A stretch of 64,000 bases of DNA, taken from NCBI GenBank assembly GCA_028753945.1, contig JAPNXP010000008.1:1674001-1738000 (forward strand), in the 5' to 3' direction. Made by a program: the position numbers and the translations under genes. Positions 4,541 through 29,730 of this stretch are shown here, piece after piece. How positions within the stretch are numbered: position 1 is the stretch's first letter; each line of letters opens with the position of its first letter. The stretch comes from Hexactinellida sp. DTS-2022. Taxonomy: Eukaryota > Porifera > Hexactinellida. The notes below the pieces were generated by a model, which was not told where the DNA came from, made no database searches, and worked only from the letters and a program-made list of their open reading frames with translations.

Positions 4541-5722
4541 TATATTAATAAAGCTAAAACTACGATTGCTATCAGGGAGGCGCAAAAAATTTGTTTATTC
4601 TGCTTATTCTGCTCGCAGGAACTAGGCAATACGAGACGGTCCAGACCAGATAGGCCTATGAAATATATTATCTGCATATGGGTTATCCATATCTAGGAAT
4701 CGATAGACGTACTGGAACAACTCGAAGGAGTTCGTATGTTTTAGTTATGACGCCATTTGAATTGTTACACGCCCATATTTTCAAACTTAGATATTTGGTT
4801 CATATGACTCTTAGAAGTAAATAATCGCAAGCAAAGTGCAACTCTAGCGACTCTTAGTGGTAAACGGAACTTTCGTCTCTGGAATTTTTTCCCAGGAATA
4901 TTCGTCCCGGAAAACTCGTCCCCGGAAAACTCGTCCTCAGAATTTTCGTCTCCGGGAATTTTAATTCCTGGAAGTTTCGTCCGGGAAAATTCGGAGAGAA
5001 ATATAATAATATTTGGAGTTATAATTTAAATAGATATACTTAATTGATAATTGAAATGAGATAATTGATGATGAATAAATTAGAATCATGATTTGAATCT
5101 TCAAAAGTCGAAGTTTTGTGCAATACCCTTAAGATATGTTAATGTTTCTCGATTCTCATAATCAGATACTAGAGCTCTAATGCGCTCATTACGCTCAACA
5201 GTCTTTATTGTGTGTTTTTGTGTGTGTCTCACCAGCCTCCCATTTTGTGACAAATGCTTCCTGTGGAGACTGTTCACGTTGTAGAGCTTTGAGGAATTTA
5301 CCAATTGTTGGATGAGAACATGCAATACAAGTTTGGTATGCATGGTGCCATCCTTCTATAGAATTTCACAGTAGTTTAGAAACAAAGAATAGGGAAAAAT
5401 AGAATTCGTTTCTAAGCGATTCAATTGATTACTTATTGTTTGAATAAAGCCCATTTCAAAATTCTAAGCAATTGAGTGCCTAGAAGCAACACAATTGCAC
5501 TCCAAATATGCATGATCATTTTAACTGAAATTGTGGTTCTAGATAATTCTAAATTTAGCTTCACTTCAAATATAAGCGAGAACATTTTAGAACTATCCAA
5601 TACGACAAATTAAGTTTAGTTTATACATTTCAAGTATGCTGCAACCTAATAACCTGTTTTCATTAATGTATTTTCAATATTTCGTTTGAGAAATCAAATT
5701 CTATATCTGTTGTTACATTAGC

Positions 5723-5746
5723 TATATATATATATATATATATATT
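5723..5746. repeat. (TA)n microsatellite
   Basis: About twelve TA units in the 5' region of the RAG1-like transposon. Confidence 0.9.
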
Positions 5747-7150
5747 AGCATCAAATTTTAATTGATAAAAACTCAAAAGTGCCCGTAAAAGTAAACTTCA
5801 CAAAACTTCAATTTGAAATTGATAAAGATATCCTTAACAATATCTAAATTCATAGTCTAAACTGACACGCCCCGAAACAGTGCGCAAATTAAGATTTTTA
5901 CTGAATTCCAAAGTCATATTTCTGTTGCTAGGCAAATTTCATAGGCTAGGCAAATTTCATATCTTACAACCACATTCATCGTATTTCAACTCAAATTACA
6001 AATTCTATGCCGATATTAGATATCTATGATGATATAAATACTTTAGTATTTTGAATATCTTATTAATAATTATTCATTGACACATCCTCATGGCTGAGAA
6101 GTTAACTTTCACAAACACCCGTATTGAATTTGCAAGAATCCTGAGAGAAAACAATAATTGTATCTTAACAACGATAAATGACCTAGAACAAAACTTTGAA
6201 CTAGACTTCGATAAGAAGAAAAGTTTGGAATCAGTGGTAATTAGAATTCGAGATAAGGTCAAGAAGGCTAAGAAATCTTTAGATTGTTTAGATGGAGAAT
6301 GGTGGCACTCTAACATTTCCATGGAGCCAGAGGTGAAGAGAAATCGAATTTCTGATCCCCATGAGTTGCCTTCAGACGATGAAGCAGAAGTAACCACACT
6401 TTCTGTGATGCATAGGAAGAGCCTTGATAATCTTTCAATGCAACAGCAACGTTCGCGACTCTCAAGTGTGCTGGAATCTATCAAGTCACTCGCATTTATT
6501 GAGAATACCTCTGAAGTCAAAATCGCGGCACTTGCCTTACAACTCTTCTCCAATCTAACAGAAAATCGTGGGATAGCAAAAGTTTCCAAATCAATCGTGT
6601 ACGACAAGTTCCCCTGTAAAATCGGGATCACATCGAAGAAAGAACTGGATGTTAGCAAAGCACTTTTCCTTGTAGATATGTTAGAGATTGGAGGAGAAAA
6701 TACACTAACCTACGCCATCACTTGCTATCTAGCGATATTTCTTTCCCTGCATATTATAAGGTAGTGGAACAAAGGAATAGCATTATTTTACGAAATATTA
6801 TTCAGCTATACCCAGGCCAGGATTAAAGCAGGTTCAGAATGTTCAGCTGAACAGGGCCGCCCACCACCAGAGTGGGACCGCCATGTCTAACATGAATTGG
6901 TCTCACTGCATCTTTTGTTGAGATATAGAAGAGCTTATTGACATTATAGTAATCTTAACTATCTTATGAGTATATAGTAATCATTGTCGATTAATGTGTT
7001 AAACTAATTTGTTGCCAAAAAGCGTTCAATGGTCAATGTGTATTTGATATTGATTTCATTTACAGAATTGTGTATGTTATTCCTACGCAGGAACAACATA
7101 AATCTACTTGAATCTACAGTTTCTTTTATAATAAATAAAGGAATTATGTA

Positions 7151-7942
7151 CAGGGTTGCCAAACCAATCCAATCGAGAAGATTTTCGATTTCCGATTGCT
7201 GCTTTTTTCATCGATTGGATTATCGGTTGGATTGCTGAATATTTCATCGATTGGATTGTCGATTGGATTGGTTCGATTTGTATCGATTCAGTGCTCGACA
7301 AAAAGAAATTTTGATGGTGGCTAATAAGCCACCACCTTCTTTTTCTGGTGGCTAAAGAATAAACAACGGCCGGTTTAACAAACCACTGATAACTTAACAA
7401 AGTAATGATGCCGTAAAACAACACTAATGTTAATAACAAATGATGCAACGAAAACTATAATCTACATAAAGTCAAATAATCCACAATATATGGTAGATTA
7501 GTTAAGCCACCAAAGACAAAATTTGGTGGCTTAAATAAGATTTTTGGTGGCTAGCGCCACCAAACCACCTAATTTGTCGAGCACTGATCAATTGGATTGC
7601 AATCGATGAATTTTCATCGATTTTTTCGATTGTTTGATTTTTCAATTTCTAAATAATGCCAAAATTTAAAATGCTCAATTGCTCGTCAATTAAACCCAAT
7701 AATATATGTTTTAAGTTTGAACATATGATGAAACATAACTCTTTTTGATATAATACTGAGGAGTAAACGATCGAAAAAAATCGGAGAAACAAACCAAAAA
7801 ATCGATGATATATTGGATTGTCGATTGCGATTGGATTGTCATCCGAATAATCGATTGTCCAAATTTGGCTCGATTGGATTGGATTGTCGATTGGATTGGA
7901 TTGGATTGGATTGGATTGGATTGGATTGGATTGGCAACCCTG
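7151..7942. mobile_element. hAT-type MITE built of GATTGGATT repeats
   Basis: Ends are CAGGGTTGCCAA and TTGGCAACCCTG. The flanks ATTATGTA (7143-7150) and ATTATGTC (7943-7950) are an 8-bp duplication with one mismatch, as for hAT elements. Both termini consist of many copies of GATTGGATT/AATCGAT. A second copy in opposite orientation is at 31935-32343. This copy is longer because a second element sits at 7289-7586. It lies in the RAG1-like gene. Confidence 0.85.
7289..7586. mobile_element. MITE with CAGTGCTCGACAAA ends, nested
   Basis: Inverted ends are CAGTGCTCGACAAA and TTTGTCGAGCACTG. The inner sequence carries repeated GCCACCAAA/TTTGGTGGC hairpins. Flanks ATCGATT and ATCAATT are a weak candidate duplication. 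It splits the 7151-7942 MITE; the other copy of that MITE (31935-32343) lacks it. A fragment of the same family is at 18092-18183. Confidence 0.75.
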
Positions 7943-8149
7943 ATTATGTCAAATTAATTTTGCCTACCATAAATAAAAACACGAGGGGGCCGGCCACCAG
8001 CTGTCCGATCGGGGCCGGCCACCTGCTTAATCCGGCCATGGCTATACCCCAATTCTGCTACTCCAGTTGGCGCGCACGTCTTGCTTACGATACCTTCTCC
8101 TGAAGCTCAAGACTTTCCTCTGCGATTTCAGATAGCGGATGGTTTAGAT

Positions 8150-9797
8150 CAGAGATGCAGCGGTCCGGAAATTTCATGGACGGACCGGACCGTCATGATT
8201 TTAGTCTGGACGGTCCGGACCGGTCCAGACCGTATGATAAAAATATTGGATCGGTCTGGACCGGTCCAGACCGATCAATGGTCCAGACCGTTATATCCTT
8301 TATTTGGACAGTTACAGACCACATAGCTAGCTAGCTAGCTAGCTATATACACAGTGGGCCAATAGGGGGAAGTAGGAGTATTTTTCATACTCACGAATAT
8401 AGGGCATATTATTATTATCGAATTAAGCATTGTCTAAAACCTAGAATGCGAACTTTATCAAGTCCTATGACTTCAAAATTTTGAATACAGTGAGTCTGAA
8501 TGAATGATGTGATATAATTGGAATTAGAGATTGAATATTGCGGTTTCACAATCGGAAAGATTCTATTTATAAAGTCGTTCTGCATAGTATAATGATTGAA
8601 ACTGAATAGGTATTTCATTTTCTAAGTATTCAAGCTTAATCTCATTGCTATAATGGGAATGCTTATGAATGCTATTCACGTAAAATTAGATATCTAATTT
8701 TACGGTTTACTCCGGATCGGACACAAATTTATTTGCCAATATAGTTGGAAATTATGTCTTGGGTGCTCTTGGGTAGGAGATTTTATGTTTTCTAATAGTA
8801 ATTTATCATCTTAACTTTAGTTTAAGATAATTTTCAGGCCCGCACAAAGCCGCACAGTATATAATTTATTCAATTTGGTATTGGCCTCTAATGAATCTCG
8901 TAAAAATGAGTAAAAATAAAATAATTGATTGTAGTACATTTATTGATTATTTCAAATAACTGATGGTCTATAATAAGCAACGAAGAAGCATCTAATCATT
9001 TGAATACAAAATTAGCATTCAGCGCATCAACCTATGAACACATCCAGGCTTTTGAAACTCCGGTAAGTAACATTTATAAGATTCGGAGGGGATTTAATGA
9101 ACTAGCTATTATTCCCAATATACGACAAAGCTATAAAAAACGATCTAAGGTCCCAAAGAGTAGTTGTACTTGCGATAATGACACTCAGTAACCATCTATC
9201 CTCTTTGTATCCAATGTAATATATTGATTTCCAGGCATTTGACTAGGCTTTCATTATTTTTTCCCATTGTTTAAGTTTTTTTATCAAATATCATGGGTGA
9301 CTAATAAAAGATTGTTAACAAACCAAAATTTAGTTTTTCATAAAATTAGAACAAATTACCCAAAACTCAACTTTAGAGACTGCATACATAATTTTTGATG
9401 ATGCCATTCAATTTCCTGCTATCAATAACCTATATGTCAATAATACTTCACAAGTGGCTATCTGCTAACAAAATGCCTATTTCCGCTAAACTGTCTTTTT
9501 GGCCCACTGTGCATAGTAGAGTGGCTAATTATATCCACTTGTGTTTATAAGATACTTATTACTTATGTGCTTGTAAACAATAGGAAATAACGGATTGGAG
9601 CCTGATCGTTTGTCCAATCTAGGATGAGTACAGACCTATGAACGGTCCAGACCGATGAACCGGTCCAGACCGTTATATCGTGAATTTGGACCGGTCCAGA
9701 CCGCACTTGAAAATAAGCGGAACGGACCGACCTGAGGCCGGTCGTCCGATCCGGTCCCGGTCTGGACCGCAGTCCGGTCCAGACTGCTGCATCTCTG
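8150..9797. mobile_element. hAT-type non-autonomous element with GGTCCGGACC repeats
   Basis: Inverted ends are CAGAGATGCAGCGGTCCGGA and, from the right, CAGAGATGCAGCAGTCTGGA. The flanking GTTTAGAT (8142-8149 and 9798-9805) is a perfect 8-bp duplication. About 200 bp at each end are dense repeats of CGGTCCAGACCG. The interior is occupied by a further element (8350-9511). The insertion point lies between codons D and G of DGLDGSGSH in the RAG1-like transposase. Confidence 0.9.
8350..9511 (+). mobile_element. Non-autonomous RAG1-like-family element with CACAGTG ends
   Basis: The ends are CACAGTGGGCC and GGCCCACTGTG. The right about 200 bp (landmarks CCATTCAATT, GATAACCTATATG-like, ATCTG, CACTGTG) resemble 11260-11434 of the RAG1-like transposon, and more strongly 43655-43863. 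A frame at 9000-9191 ends in SSCTCDNDTQ, and homologous but broken sequence is at 43400-43530; I do not recognise it. The flanks next to the heptamers do not match, but CATAG occurs right after the right end (9512-9516) and at 8322-8326, 23 bases of CTAG repeat away from the left heptamer. Confidence 0.65.
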
Positions 9798-12700
9798 GTT
9801 TAGATGGATCCGGAAGTCACAGAATATACAACCATTCTAACACGAATACAGAGACCAAATCATACATCATATTCTGATTTAAGTCAGTGCAGGTTACAAC
9901 CTATAGTGGCCGAGAACTCTGGAAAAACACCAGTCCGAACTCTCCCTACACCCAGCGACCCATTTTCCTTCTCGCTGCGAAAGGAAATGAAGAAAATATC
10001 AAGCAGTTCATGACCGATTTAATCAATCCGGAAACTGAGCTTATGAAAAGTGAACGATTCTCTCTTGGCGATAATCACAAAGTACATGTCGACATTGTTC
10101 GGTCAATGTTTGATGGGAAAATGTCTGCAATTCTATCTGGAGCAGGTAGGGCAAGTTGCCAATTATGTACCGCTACTCACAATTAACTGAAAGATCGTGA
10201 ATTGATAATACAGGGATTTCCTATAAATAGACACATCACTGATGCCATCAACTATTTGGAGAAATCGAGGATAACGATTATTTCTTTTCTCTACCCTCAA
10301 ACAAACGTTATAACCTCAACACGAACCAATCTCCACTATAAATATCCTTCCAGCATCTCCTTTACACTCATACACTAGTGTATGCCGGTGGTTTACTCTG
10401 CTCGTTCATCATTTGAACTGTGGTAAACTTAAATGGTCACCAACATCAAATGCAGTAAAAATTCGATGGTATTTGTCAGAACTCTTGTCAAGAGAAGACT
10501 GGTTTGAAGATAGACCAGCCTGATCCTAAGGGGGGTAATACCTCTACTGGTGGTGTTGCGCGTCGAGCTTTCTCCTCTGAGTCAAAATTTATTGATTGTG
10601 TTTCGTCATGTGTTGCGATTGAGTCAAGGAGACACTTTCACAATTATCAGCTATTCTTAGGATAATAAATTCAGACAGGAAGATATGTACCGAAAAATTT
10701 GGCGATCTATGCACCAACACTTATCTCTTAATTCTCGACACTCTTCCTAGGGAAGGCATTACACCGACATTACATCGGGTATTAGCTCACTCGGAAGAAA
10801 TTTCGAAAGAGTTGAATTTTGGACACGGCTTGAAATGTTTCTCTGAGGAAGGTTCCGAAGCATGTAAAAAGCTAATAAGAAAGTACAGGGAGAATCTTGC
10901 CAGAAAGTGCTCATTTGAAGACAATGTGGTCGACATTTTTGTGAGATTGGCTTCTGAGAGTGATCCCGTATTAAATCGATCCCGATCAAAGTTAGTTTGC
11001 GAAAGATGTGGAGAACACGGACAAACAAAAAGAGCTAAATGCTGTAGAGAGAATACTAATAATATTACATTACATTAATCAATTAATATAATTGTTGATT
11101 CACTTATAATTAATAATTAACCTTGAAAGAATTAAATCTAACATCCATATAATAATCATTTCTATTGTTTAGAGAGTATCAACGTATTTTTCATCTATCA
11201 AGAATAATCAAGTTAGTTTATAGTGATAATAAATTTTTGAACAAATTTTATTGAAAATAAAAAAAATCGAGATGTGAAAATGACTTCATATCCGGATATT
11301 TTGAAGCCATAGAGTATTTATTATTACACCATTCAATTCCTAGGGTACGATAACCTATATGCATTTAACACATTTCATATGTCTATCTGGTACCAGAATA
11401 CCTATTCTTACTAAACCCCATATAAACCACTGTGAATTTGTAGTGCGAGCAAGTTGCTGAAGGACCCTTTGATACATGTTCCAAATTCTAGTAGGAAATG
11501 GTGGAACTCTTCCACTTTGATCAGGTAAACGTTACCCAATGTATGTTTCTCTCAAAATATTTCGCGACGTTAAGAGCGGATTCCGGGGAATCTGTCATCA
11601 GGATAGTGAAACAATCAGGAAGATCTTCTTCAGGGACGAAAGCTAAGCTAGGTAGCATCTTCAACTTCAAGACAAATTCTCTATCGGTTTGATACTGAGA
11701 AGTTAGTCCCTCGGATGAATCTTTTTGTAAATATTATGTAAAAGATGAAAAAAACATCCTGAAATTACAGTAGGAAAAATATTTTCGAAATAATTCATCG
11801 CAGTCTTCTCAAAATCAATCATTATGTTAGTTGGGTTTAATCGTTGTTCAAATTCACAAAGTTTGCTGAGAAGCTTATTGTAGGTAGTTTCCTTTTATTT
11901 ATTGGATAGTAGAGCAAAAACACAAGGATAAACGAACCCATCTTTTTCAGCGTGTATGGTGTATAATTGAAAAATATATACAGGGAAACCTTAAATGTTC
12001 CGTCAGCAAACCAGGTGCTAGATTGTTTGAGAATTTAAAAGAATCTTGGATTTGAAAATACTATAATTCGGTTGTGGTCACCATAGCCTGAATCATATAT
12101 TAAGAATGGCTAATCTTTAAGAGTTACTTTGTATAGTTCTTGTATTTTTTAACTTCTGCAGCACATGTTGGATTGCCACAGTTCACGTCAGAAACGCTTT
12201 TGTAATTTCGGATGGTTCTCTTAACGGAACTTTAGCTATAGTTGAGGAGCTCATTGTCGCAATCCCACTAGACAATATGACCCGGGTACTTTCTTCAGAG
12301 TTTATTGAGTGTTGTTTGAGAGCATTGTACCCTTTAAGCAGATCGATGCATGCAGGATCTGAGCCATGGTTATGACTAGAGTGAATCTGGTCGATAAATG
12401 TCGGCTTAATTACTTGATTAACTCTAGTATGCAATCGTGCTTTACACACCCCTATCTTTTCACAAACCCATTGCTCTACATCTTGTGAAGACTTGGTCAA
12501 TGTATAAACAAACCCTTCGATAGAGGGTTTATCTTTTCCTCTAGTAGTCCTGATTAATTCTATTGTGAGTGACGTTGACATTGCAGAATTGTAAAGTGAT
12601 ATTACGAATAATAGTATTTTAGGTTTTGAAGACCATTCTTATATACTACAGTGCCGGGAATTTGTACACTTTCGACAAGATTGTGCGGCTATTGAAGATT

Positions 12701-12865: not shown

Positions 12866-14892
12866 ATAGGCACGCAATAAGTGGTGTACAATGGAATTTA
12901 TAAATCATAGTAATATTCTATTAACTAATTAATAATATAAGTAGTAATCTCATATAAAGGTTATTATTCTACAATTTATTTGGAATTTATAAACAATGCA
13001 ACTATTCTCAAAATAATGTCGTTCAGAAGAAATATTCGAAGCGTGCAATAAATTTATTCAACAAAAAAGAGAACATTTATCAAGAAAAAATATATTCTCG
13101 CAAAATATTAAGGTTGTATTAACTCGACTACGTTGCCATAGTGGTCCGATACTTTGTAGACTATCGTCCAAAAATACTCCGTAAATTGGGGACAAATAAA
13201 TCATCCATGGAATGAGAAGTGTAATAGTGTAAAAATACCTCTATTAGTTCAAGTTGTCGTACCCAAACTTTAAATGAAAAAGTTAAATAAATTTCAGTTT
13301 GATATTTTATAATCTATGACGTCAAAATAAATAAGAATGGAGCCAAACGAGAAAGTATTTTAATCAATTTCTATTATCTGATAAATATATATTTAAAGAT
13401 AAATTATCCCTATTTAGAGTATATCTGCCCTATAAATGCGAAATTTTCTATGAATTGATAAAATAAGGCATGATTCACTTTCTTCACTAAATTAGATTGT
13501 GGAGTATGTGAAAAATAAAATGGCCACCGACGCAGGGTAGCGCGGTGCTGCATATAGTTTTAAATTCAAGCTAACTATATAGGCTCAATTTCTAAACTCC
13601 CCGGCCAAGAGTATTTGAACAACAAATATCATTATACAAACAGAAAATGTTTTTAACATCAATATTACGTCTGTAGATGCATTTAATGGATATTTATATA
13701 ATACGATATGTTCAGGTGATAAATAGCAAATTTTTGTAATTATAATCATTATAGAGGTAGCAAGGGGGTATTACTCTTAAGAGAAAAATTCTAATCATTA
13801 CAGTTATCTCTACCGAGATAGAGCACATTCCCATGTGAGCCACCTCATGGATATTGGCTGAAAATGAACTAATACCAGAAAGTTTCAAAATAAAAAAATA
13901 GCAATATACTTGAAGTCATTTCAGGGAAATGGCCTTCATTCATAGGGTGTTTTAAGATTATCGTATCTGCATTTAAATTATTAAGGTTCAAATTCTTTCG
14001 TCCCGGGTGTGTAAAAAAATAGAAAAAAATGCAAGAGGCTGCAATATAACTTTGGATACTTTCAATACATATGGACCACCTGTCCGGACAAATAATTATT
14101 GACCATTACTTAGATAATATAACTGGGCTAAAATCATTCGGCCCTTTGCTTTAAAAAAATTAGAACGATGATTTGAGGCATATGGGCAAACTGATTGCAA
14201 TAAATCATGAGAATTCATGCAATACGTATATATAGCTAATTGGAAAAGTACAAACACCATTATATATATTACGTATATGAATTCCTTAGTAAATTGAATA
14301 GTAATACGTATATTCTGTAATTTATTATTTGAATACATTTTCCCAGGTTTATGACTAGTTACAAACTGAAATCATTATAAATAGCTACTAGATCGCTACT
14401 TATATAAAAACTATGCGTAGTATGTAATCATATCCTTCATTGAGCAATTCTAGAGACAATTCAGATATGGCATAATTCGTCTGTATTAATGATTTGAATG
14501 AGTGTGATAAACACAACTTTTTTAAGTCTTTCCATGCATCCAGCCAATTATAAAAAACAAAGAAATTGAGTTTTTTAATCATTTGAAACTAAAGCGTTTT
14601 CTTTACTTAAAGGGTGAAACTTCACTTTGGAATTGACACAAAGCCACAAAACCCGAATTAAGTTAAAACAACAGCAATAGTGTCTTCTTCAGGAAGGTAT
14701 AAAAGAGTATATTATAAACTTTCACATCTAGGAATTGCATAATTCTGAATTTTACTCGAAAATAGAAATTTCGACCTGACAGAAGATACGTTCTTTTGGT
14801 GTCAGAAGTGATTTAGTTGGAACGCTAGCCTGGCTGTTAGGGATTGATTCAGGATGAATAGTCGGATAGGATCTAAATGGTAATTCAATATA
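12866..14892. other. No gene seen; repeat remnants
   Basis: AT-rich. The sequence GCCACCTCATGGATATTGGC near 13840 is the reverse of a motif in the 2080/45300/51225 repeat family, so part of this stretch is an old reversed copy. Minus-strand open frames at 14096-14338 and 14400-14582 show no family motif. Confidence 0.4.
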
Positions 14893-26451: not shown

Positions 26452-27498
26452 ATGGCACTTGCACTTTTTCTACTTGAACTCGATACAGATCACAGTTTAG
26501 CCCTTCAGAGAGTGTTCCGAGATAGATTAAATCCTCTCGACTCATACAACGATACAGAATTTATCAGTCGATATAGGTTTACTCGATGTATTTTCATAGA
26601 ACTACATGACAAAATTGTCGGACGCATTCACCGATCTACTATTAGATCACATTCGATTCCAACCATAACTCAATTGGGTGCTGCCCTACAATTCTTGGCA
26701 ACAGGATCTTTCCAGACTGTCATTGCAACTACACATGGTATTTCTCAACCTTCCGTGTCAAGATGTGTTGCTGCAGTATCTGATGCTCTCTGCTCATTTG
26801 CCAAGGATTATATAAATTTTCCTACTCAACAAAAACAAATACAAGTGCAACAAGCCTTTTTAGAGAAGGCTGGATTCCCCTTGGTACTGGGATGCATTGA
26901 TTGTTCACATGTGCCTATTCTTGCACCATCAAATAATGAAGAAATTTATGTAAACAGAAAAAACGAACATTCGATCAACATCCAAGCTATTTGTGACAGT
27001 GATTGGAGATTCATCGATGTTGTCGCAAAATGGCCAGGATGCACACATGATGCATTTATCTGGAGACAGTCTGGGATTAACAATAAAATTTCAAGCGGGG
27101 AAATACCAATCGTCAACGGGTGGTTCCTCGGAGATAGTGGGTATCCTTTACGCCCTAATTTATTGACACCGATCCATTCTCCAACAACACCTGGCGAAAG
27201 AAGATATCAACGTGCATTCCTGAAAATTCGCCAAACAATTGAATGTGCATTTGGCTTATGGAAGAGCCGCTGGAGATCTATGGACAGGAGTGGAGGTATA
27301 CTATGTTACACACCAGAGAGAATCTGTAAACTAGTCATTGCAACGATGATATTACATAATATTTGCATTGATCATGGGTTGCAATGGGAAGAAGAATCGC
27401 TTGTTGAGATAGAAGAAGATGAAGAGATCCTACCTCTTGATTCCATGACTAGCGGACATGCAGTTCGCCTAAAAGTGATTGCTGATTACTTTAATTGA
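26452..27498 (+). CDS. PIF/Harbinger nuclease (HARBI1-like), intact
   Basis: A single 348-residue frame, normal length for the family. A helix-turn-helix-like region lies at about 75-110 (FQTVIATTHGISQPSVSRCV). The DDE_4 catalytic triad appears complete: Asp150 in LGCIDCSHV, Asp228 in WFLGDSGYPL and Glu264 in RQTIECAFGLWKSRWR, with WPGCTHDAFIWR between. The C-terminus has the usual VIATMILHNICI motif and an acidic stretch. The enzyme excises and inserts the surrounding transposon, and in known Harbinger elements it needs the Myb-like partner for nuclear import and end recognition. The partner is next door in convergent orientation, 98 bp away. No stop or frameshift is seen, so it may be young or recently active. 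ATG at 26452 gives the only long frame. Confidence 0.93.
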   Translation: MALALFLLELDTDHSLALQRVFRDRLNPLDSYNDTEFISRYRFTRCIFIELHDKIVGRIHRSTIRSHSIPTITQLGAALQFLATGSFQTVIATTHGISQPSVSRCVAAVSDALCSFAKDYINFPTQQKQIQVQQAFLEKAGFPLVLGCIDCSHVPILAPSNNEEIYVNRKNEHSINIQAICDSDWRFIDVVAKWPGCTHDAFIWRQSGINNKISSGEIPIVNGWFLGDSGYPLRPNLLTPIHSPTTPGERRYQRAFLKIRQTIECAFGLWKSRWRSMDRSGGILCYTPERICKLVIATMILHNICIDHGLQWEEESLVEIEEDEEILPLDSMTSGHAVRLKVIADYFN

Positions 27499-27596
27499 AT
27501 ATAACTATCAATTAATTAAGTAAACTAAATAGCAATGGTTCCTAACTCTCCTAGTTTGAAATAAATACTTAGTAAGTAAACTATAATAGTGGTATG

Positions 27597-28421
27597 CTAG
27601 TCTTTATCAGGATAAAATGGTGGTAGTTGTGGGTAATAATTTGGCTGGAATCCATGTGGAATGTGTGTGGAAGAGGGAGCTTGAAAACAAGGTAGTGGCT
27701 GAGGTTGCATCGTCGAGGATGCATTATAAACTAACAGCTTATTTTGGTTTGAGACAAGTCGCTCTAAGAGATCCACAATCCTACCCGTATTGGCATGATA
27801 ACTCTCAACAAACTTGCCCAGTTTGCAATCTATTCTCTTTAGAATATTGATTTTCTCTTCTTCATGTTCCAATATTTTCTGTTTGACTGAATCGGGTGCG
27901 ATTAAAGTATCATCTAATAATTTTCTTTTCCTTGTTGCCTTTAACTCTAATTCCGACGCTGAACTTTGAGATGGAATCTCAAAAGGAGTAGGGCTAATAA
28001 CCATATCACACGCACTAAATGGACTGGCAGGTGGTTCCATGGAAAGATCTAATCCGCCAGTAATTCCTTCAAATATTTCTTTCCCCTTGATTGACTTTAT
28101 CTTAAGTTCAAACTCCGTTAGTCCGGCTTCTGCAGGTCCACCACCTGTTTTCCTTATAGATTCTAATTTGTCACTGATAATCGGCTTGTATTTGACCAAG
28201 ATATTACACCACTTTTTATATACATCATCCTTCGTCCTGACAGTCTCATGCTGTTGAGAAATGGATCGAGCTATTTCTTCCCAGATAGTGTTTTTATCAT
28301 CGAAAGTTAATGACGAACTGAACGAACCAAAGAGTTTAGATTTATTGTCCAAGACCAAATCAACTAAAGTGGTAATTTCTTCGTTTGTAAAGTTCTTCGC
28401 TCGGGTTTTGATCATTGACAT
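27597..28421 (-). CDS. Harbinger Myb/SANT-like DNA-binding partner, intact
   Basis: A 274-residue frame. Residues about 8-85 form a Myb/SANT-like (MADF/NAIF1-type) trihelix: FTNEEITTLVDLVLDNKSKL, then TIWEEIARSI, then VYKKWCNILVKYKP. The middle is Ser/Pro-rich, and RKRKLLD (about 164) is a likely nuclear signal. A charged helix ILEHEEEKINILKRIDCKLG follows, then a Pro/Gln-rich tail. In Harbinger systems this protein binds the terminal repeats and brings in the nuclease. It is the convergent neighbour of the intact nuclease gene inside the same terminal repeats, which supports the role. Not every residue of the fold was checked; the assignment rests on motif order and context. Confidence 0.85.
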   Translation of the reverse strand: MSMIKTRAKNFTNEEITTLVDLVLDNKSKLFGSFSSSLTFDDKNTIWEEIARSISQQHETVRTKDDVYKKWCNILVKYKPIISDKLESIRKTGGGPAEAGLTEFELKIKSIKGKEIFEGITGGLDLSMEPPASPFSACDMVISPTPFEIPSQSSASELELKATRKRKLLDDTLIAPDSVKQKILEHEEEKINILKRIDCKLGKFVESYHANTGRIVDLLERLVSNQNKLLVYNASSTMQPQPLPCFQAPSSTHIPHGFQPNYYPQLPPFYPDKD

Positions 28422-29730
28422 TTTTCTTTACGAATATTAATTATATTTTAATGTTGTATGTAGAATCGATTAAATTCAATGTAAATTATATTCAAATTTA
28501 TACTCACAACTAGGTTAATGATTCGCTATTATCATCATGTTTAATTACATAATTCGTAGTTTATTACACGCTGAAACTAGAAACCACCATTCCTTTACGT
28601 ACGAGATTCACTATTACCACAATCACCTTCAATTTGCGTAAACTATAGTGCGCATGTTGCAGAATATGTGAAGCCAAATTATATACTGTTATGAGCATTT
28701 GTATTATTAGCAAATAGAAACCATAATTGATATCTTAGTTAATAACAGTAACAACAAGACAACCTAGTGTAACCCTAATTAATGATTGTTTAACAGTCTG
28801 CATCTTCAGTTTCCAATGAAATTATTTGTAGTAATACCAATATATCCCATGATTTATTGAGTTAAGTCACCTTCCGATTCTACTCAAGTAAATCCATAAA
28901 AAACTAAGTATTGAGACAAATACTAAGTAATACTAAGTAAATACTTAGTTTTTGACTGAAAACTAAGTAAAAACTAAGTAATTACTTAGTTTTGCTTTGT
29001 GAATACCAACTAATTTTTGCTATCTAATCAGGGGAAATACTAAGTATTTACTTAGTTTTCAGTCAAAACTAAGTATTTACTTAGTTTAAGTTAAGTATAA
29101 GTTTAAGTAGTTTAGTGAATAAGGCCCCAGATATGTAAGTATTAGCTAAACTACAAAACAGGGTCGGGGCAATCCTCCTGTGGAGAGTGCCAAAATAATA
29201 ATATAGGCTAATGTGAACGCCTTAGGTAAATCAATGTGATCTACTGAGTCCCTAAATATGAATTCCCATTTCCCATTCGCCAATAATATATTTCATATGT
29301 ATAAAACTAACTAATCTCGAGATTTTAACAATATTACCATATATGGAAAGGTGTGAGAATCGTATAACTTACATTCCACAAATATTTTCGATAAACCAAT
29401 ATTACCGTTGGACTCCCAAAATTTGATTTCCTGTACGAAAATGATACATTTCATATGGATAAAGTTAAGTAATCTCGAGATTTTAACAAAATTAGCATAT
29501 ATGGAAGGGTGTGAAAATCGCATAACTTACATTCCACAAATATTTTCGATAAACCAATATTACCGTTGGACTCCCAAAATATGACTTCCTATACTACAAT
29601 AATACATTTCCTATGTCTAGCATTAGCGGATTACGGGATATCAATAAGTAACAATACTGTTTTAGGCCTACGCTAATTTTACCGTAAAACGAAGTTTACA
29701 GTCCCTATATTAAAGAAGTCCCTGGCAATG

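Follow-up and report, generated by a model that had tools for sequence, protein, structure and literature searches.

A decayed Transib-superfamily transposon with a RAG1-like transposase gene in a hexactinellid sponge, and its intact RAG2-free relatives, which usually have one short and one long end

The stretch of 64,000 nucleotides analysed here, hereafter the window, comes from Hexactinellida sp. DTS-2022 (assembly GCA_028753945.1, contig JAPNXP010000008.1, positions 1,674,001 to 1,738,000 of the forward strand) and carries, at 5367-11434, a transposon with a gene for a RAG1-like transposase. Its termini are CACAGTAG...CCACTGTG, and AATTT stands exactly on both flanks, its copies at 5362-5366 and 11435-11439 abutting CACAGTAGTTTAG... 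(from 5367) and ...TAAACCACTGTG (to 11434). When the CAC/GTG pairs of both flanks were scored, the 5367/11434 pair, with its 5-bp duplication, came out on top, confirming the heptamer-like ends and the AATTT target duplication that had been proposed by an earlier reading of the letters (the sequence-only reading). The heptamers of this copy are CACAGTA at one end and CACAGTG at the other, and the features of its ends are as follows:

5362..5366, no strand: left target-site duplication AATTT, by flank comparison
5367..5373, plus strand: left-end heptamer CACAGTA (CACAGTG in the family at large), by end comparison
5385..5393, plus strand: left-end second box AAGAATAGG, 11 bp past the heptamer (left positions 19-27), by left/right box match
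11401..11409, minus strand: right-end second box AAGAATAGG, 18 bp past the heptamer (20-21 bp in relatives), by left/right box match
11428..11434, minus strand: right terminal heptamer CACAGTG, by end comparison
11435..11439, no strand: right target-site duplication AATTT, by flank comparison

Joining the flanks in silico with one AATTT kept gave an 87-aa minus-strand frame that spans the junction, and next to this frame, at 12183-12638, lies a FLYWCH zinc finger (PF04500, E 1.7e-8); to judge from these predicted products, the site fits insertion into a MULE-like gene. The sequence-only reading had the insertion break a MULE frame. The restored frame and the nearby zinc finger are in keeping with this, though the 84-aa stretch on the left flank, searched by itself against Pfam, matched no family.

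The transposase gene is laid out in the following pieces:

6090..6814, plus strand: transposase 5' part, in one frame to about 6692 and in another thereafter to 6814 (frameshift), by frame mapping
6414..6605, plus strand: coding stretch of a domain like the nonamer-binding domain (NBD) of RAG1 (RKSLDNLSMQQQRSRL...), by profile/homology comparison
6814..8041, no strand: nested insert A, 1228 bp, with the 8-bp duplication CTATACCC (6806-6813, 8042-8049) and no intron, by direct repeats
8042..8149, plus strand: transposase piece ending at ADGLD, by frame mapping
8150..9797, no strand: nested insert B, 1648 bp, with inverted ends CAGAGATGCAGC and the 8-bp duplication GTTTAGAT (8142-8149, 9798-9805), by repeats
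9797..11114, plus strand: transposase 3' part, in three frames and with stops, by frame mapping
9803..9805, plus strand: first catalytic Asp codon (second D of DGLDGSG, aligned to RAG1 DGMGD), by alignment
10112..10114, plus strand: second catalytic Asp codon (MFDGK), by alignment
10847..10849, plus strand: catalytic Glu codon (SEEG), by alignment
10998..11045, plus strand: zinc-knuckle-like tail CERCGEHGQTKRAKCC, with Q replacing the H of relatives, by motif comparison

The three RAG1 catalytic contexts reported earlier are all found in this copy: DGLD-GSGSH (8138-8149, resuming from 9797), RSMFDGK...CQLC (about 10100-10168) and SEEGSEACKK (10841-10870). The copy is nevertheless dead, with frame shifts near 6692 and within 10249-10320, stops in the gene and the two nested inserts, of which insert B is presumably hAT-like. 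Another inverted-repeat element, rich in GATTGGATT, was seen within insert A at 7155-7945. The sequence-only reading had spliced the gene from three segments (6090-6764, 8081-8149, 9806-11078), and these do code for successive parts of the protein, as would be expected if a RAG1-like gene of three exons were still functional. The gaps, however, are bounded by 8-bp duplications and inverted ends, the nine intact relatives described below have one unbroken frame with no introns at the gap sites, and the segments themselves contain frameshifts and stops. Introns are therefore ruled out, the gaps being nested inserts, and a functional three-exon gene is vanishingly improbable.

The genome searched for relatives comprises 112 Mb in 18 contigs. 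It gave at least 151 matches to the N-terminal piece of the transposase (the best 150 of 265 candidates were scored) and at least 150 to the C-terminal piece (the best 150 of 423). Whole-element regions were fetched for 20 loci (L061-L080); nine of them (L061-L065, L067-L070) contain an intact frame of 708-743 codons counted from the first ATG, and L066 has one of 751 codons whose tail is unusual. Eight intact elements with both ends (L061-L065, L067, L069, L070) measure 2975-3665 bp and hold, besides the transposase, no second frame longer than 123 codons from stop to stop and none of RAG2 size, in agreement with the claim that the element is RAG1-only. The window copy thus belongs to a large family of cut-and-paste transposons carrying only the RAG1-like enzyme. 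Those protein relatives of the transposase that carry a species name (identity 43-63%) belong to Oopsacas minuta, a glass sponge, which by name alone points to a glass sponge as the probable host. At another locus (L009/L043, C5:2061447-2062523), a single copy has been inverted internally, so that its N- and C-terminal halves are on different strands.

Among the end scans, which sought CAC-type ends and therefore fixed the first three bases partly by choice, 19 elements had both ends. All 38 ends start with CAC and have G as base 8, and 36 carry CACAGTG (17/19 left, 19/19 right), the exceptions being CACAGTA in the window and CACATTG. An exact 5-bp duplication flanks 15 of the 19 end pairs, the match being no longer than 5 bp in 10/10 tested; an earlier pairing of left and right loci had given a terminal pair with such a duplication in 6 of 14. 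Five of the fetched regions (L066, L068, L072, L075, L076) have no complete end pair and stand outside these counts, and four (L071, L078, L079, L080) have both ends without an exact 5-bp duplication. The sequence-only reading was thus borne out in other copies as to CAC...GTG ends and 5-bp duplications, and since both recur in relatives, those of the window copy are far above chance. The family heptamer CACAGTG is identical to the consensus heptamer of V(D)J signals. The terminus may also, as further claimed, resemble the vertebrate heptamer more than Transib ends commonly do; some Transib heptamers are reported to equal the canonical recombination signal sequence (RSS) already (PMC8355894, in the part available). 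Other heptamers differ, being CACTWMC in protostome RAGL (RAG1L-RAG2L) transposons (PMC7204232, part of the text) and CACACCC in AanRAGL (PMC9435367).

The affiliation of the transposase was examined both in the window and in its intact relatives. The window piece 10623-11075 matched HzTransib best (E 3.6e-7) and RAG1L and RAG1 weakly, while the Pfam RAG1 profile gave 16.5 bits on the last piece, below the 25-bit cut-off. With the intact protein of L062 the order was the same (HzTransib 4.9e-22, BbRAG1L 5.4e-11, mouse RAG1 from 1.2e-7), and Pfam RAG1 exceeded its cut-off in four of the five intact proteins tried. The closest relative with a solved structure is therefore HzTransib, followed by RAG1L and RAG1, as expected from the RAG1/Transib membership claimed at the outset. 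By their sequences, a DDE core homologous to that of Transib and RAG1, CAC ends and a 5-bp duplication, the element is a member of the Transib superfamily.

A RAGL transposon that has lost RAG2, and is nearer to RAG1 than to Transib, has to be weighed against this assignment. Three features of the sponge transposases point toward it: the N-terminal domain matches the RAG1 NBD (with single sequences the match is weak, Pfam giving weak and mixed matches on single N-terminal pieces); the stretch between CxxC and the zinc-binding His is 65-66 residues long in 9/9 intact proteins, near the 60 of BbRAG1L and unlike the 30 of HzTransib (counted by eye, and a comparison of lengths only); and a zinc-knuckle-like tail of variant spacing is present in five of the nine. 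On the other hand, HzTransib is the best match, and the exact RAG1L tail motif Cx2Cx3GHx4C is found in none of the nine intact sponge proteins. The motif occurs in 2 of 122 close homologues (many of them fragments) and in 28 of 47 proteins of the L076 set. In a tree of 339 columns, RAG1 and BbRAG1L are separate from all sponge proteins with a support of 100, in a small sample with three outgroups only. An origin from a RAGL transposon is thus very unlikely. HzTransib itself pairs with P0166 in this tree (94), which may be long-branch attraction given the long branches. We also observed a second, divergent Transib lineage, L076. In the tree it falls outside the main sponge clade, in a clade (support 99; 88 for the inner node) that includes environmental proteins and one of Hydra; its closest relatives are likewise of environmental origin, apart from a Hydra vulgaris protein.

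Behind the heptamer, a second box is common to both ends, at a distance of 11 bp on the left and of 20-21 bp on the right. In a blind best-match search of left against right ends, the two boxes were offset by 9 or 10 bp in 12 of the 19 pairs, and in 10 of 15 when one pair per family was kept, leaving out L005, L024, L071 and L073 as near-duplicates of L004, L061, L069 and L077. Eleven pairs beat shuffles at <=0.005; nine of these were offset by 9 or 10 bp, L064 by 0 and L073 by 14. When all offsets between -5 and 21 were scanned, the fit peaked at 9 and 10. The window copy has an offset of 7; the boxes of its near relative end at 26 and 36. The box sequence varies by family (GGAAATAG, GGAAGTAG, TCGATTAG, TTCGAATAG, CGTAATAG) while the two boxes of any one element remain alike, at an offset of 9-10 bp: without the same four near-duplicates and the window copy, left boxes agreed with their own right box at 10.3 of 14 positions and with foreign ones at 7.4, and none of 20000 partner permutations reached the fit of the own pairs. 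Past the left box, a run of A resembling a nonamer (AAAAAAATC) was considered as a general feature and dropped, as it occurs only in L062, L063 and partly L065.

Genome-wide, three box classes gave 105, 517 and 40 matches, whereas their patterns read in reverse gave 2, 0 and 1. Among the 100, 100 and 40 matches listed, 44, 45 and 16 were of short length (24-27), 54, 54 and 19 of long length (33-36) and 2, 1 and 5 of other lengths, the short and long classes corresponding to 11 and 20-21 bp between heptamer and box; they formed 21, 22 and 11 facing pairs, and 54 of these 54 combine one short and one long end, many being copies of few short non-autonomous elements and not independent. Numerous non-autonomous copies, some 1.15 or 1.8 kb in length, were noted, in all of which a short end faces a long one.

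Taken together, we consider it probable that the element in the window is a dead Transib-superfamily transposon whose working relatives encode a RAG1-type DDE transposase with an NBD-homologous domain, act without RAG2, and have heptamer/box ends of which a short and a long one are paired. By analogy with its relatives, the core of the transposase dimer would hold CACAGTG at each end, and the NBD would hold the second box, 11 bp inward on the left and 20-21 bp inward on the right, deeper by roughly one helical turn. A short end would thereby be paired with a long one, as in V(D)J recombination, and the enzyme would cut at CAC and insert with a 5-bp stagger.

The same ends could belong to ordinary Transib transposition, in which the two ends differ by descent, the box offset is an inherited accident and no pairing rule exists. 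In favour of this, the families share descent, and both ends are passed on to short non-autonomous copies; in addition, invertebrate RAGL has been proposed to be rather insensitive to asymmetry (PMC7204232, in the part available). A family of four (L007, L026, L033, L034) speaks against a strict pairing rule: its terminal repeats of about 570 bp are 96-99% alike and both of the short type, and its C13 copy is flanked by TCATG on both sides, a 5-bp duplication by which it seems to have moved. The short/long pair is therefore usual and not universal. Against inheritance alone stand the 54 facing pairs and the box, which drifts between families yet remains matched within the element, in what looks like constraint. 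We hold the absence of any rule possible rather than probable. That a RAG2-free transposase of RAG1 type works under a rule like 12/23, needing an 11-bp and a 20-21-bp end while its NBD tracks a fast-evolving box, we advance only tentatively. If this were true, the CACAGTG heptamer, the NBD and the short/long logic would predate both RAG2 and adaptive immunity and would be open to study in a natural high-copy system.

Elsewhere in the window, a second Transib fragment lies on the same strand at 13017-13172 (SEEIFEACNKFIQQKREHLSRK..., 50-52% identity). A DDE_Tnp_4 transposase frame (26452-27495, plus strand) stands beside a Myb/SANT frame (27600-28427, minus strand), and we take the pair at 26452-28427 to be that typical of PIF/Harbinger elements.

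Whether the 12/23 rule arose with RAG2, in vertebrates, or from inherited Transib ends is presented as an open question in the available parts of PMC8355894 and PMC8289069. Hundreds of end matches, several box classes with a one-turn offset and many intact RAG2-free transposases offer natural replicates for it. The copy number departs from the statement, in the part of PMC4411706 available, that autonomous Transibs occur at one or few copies per animal genome. A literature search found no publication joining Transib and Hexactinellida among the matches listed, and among those listed for Transib and Porifera none was on this subject, judged by title.

The V(D)J RSS shares with the sponge ends the heptamer CACAGTG and a second element at two distances (12/23, a difference of 11), but it acts with RAG2 and its nonamer ACAAAAACC differs from the sponge box; that nonamer does not stand at 12 or 23 bp in the sponge ends, which have boxes such as GGAAATAG at 11 or 20-21 bp. 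Drosophila Transib5 and Anopheles Transib2/N1-N3 likewise have asymmetric Transib ends of 12/23 type, their second element, unlike that of the sponge, being nonamer-like (PMC8355894, as far as available). HzTransib (PDB 6pqn, 6pqx) aligns only from model residue 178 on, leaving the NBD part unmatched, its CxxC-to-His stretch is shorter than in the sponge proteins, and its ends are described as symmetric in the accessible part of PMC8289069. According to that same part, ProtoRAG/BbRAG1L differs in having RAG2L, spacers of 27/31 and another end sequence (PMC8289069). AanRAGL of Aureococcus resembles the sponge family in its two conserved end elements with 4/13-bp spacers, a 9-bp difference, and is unlike it in the 13-bp element CACACCCAAACCT and in carrying RAG2L (PMC9435367).

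The nearest likeness by described features, not by sequences of terminal inverted repeats (TIRs), is to the Subgroup I Transibs, among them Hydra Transib-9_HMp and ctenophore and bacterial Transibs, which are defined by asymmetric TIRs, alpha11-alpha12 (the RAG2-binding region in ZnB) and CTT1 (Cx2Cx3GHx4C), the NBD being present in both subgroups (PMC9435367). Like the sponge family, they have a RAG1-type transposase without RAG2, asymmetric TIRs, an NBD and, to judge by length alone, a ZnB stretch like that of RAG1L, which Subgroup II lacks. The sponge family differs in its host, in CACAGTG at nearly all ends, in hundreds of end matches and in a tail zinc knuckle that is present in five of nine proteins with a spacing other than Cx2Cx3GHx4C. 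As asymmetric ends and an NBD have already been described for Subgroup I (PMC9435367), the sponge family is a new and richly represented member of an established kind, to which it adds the exact heptamer, a matched and drifting box at a one-turn offset, and a very high copy number.

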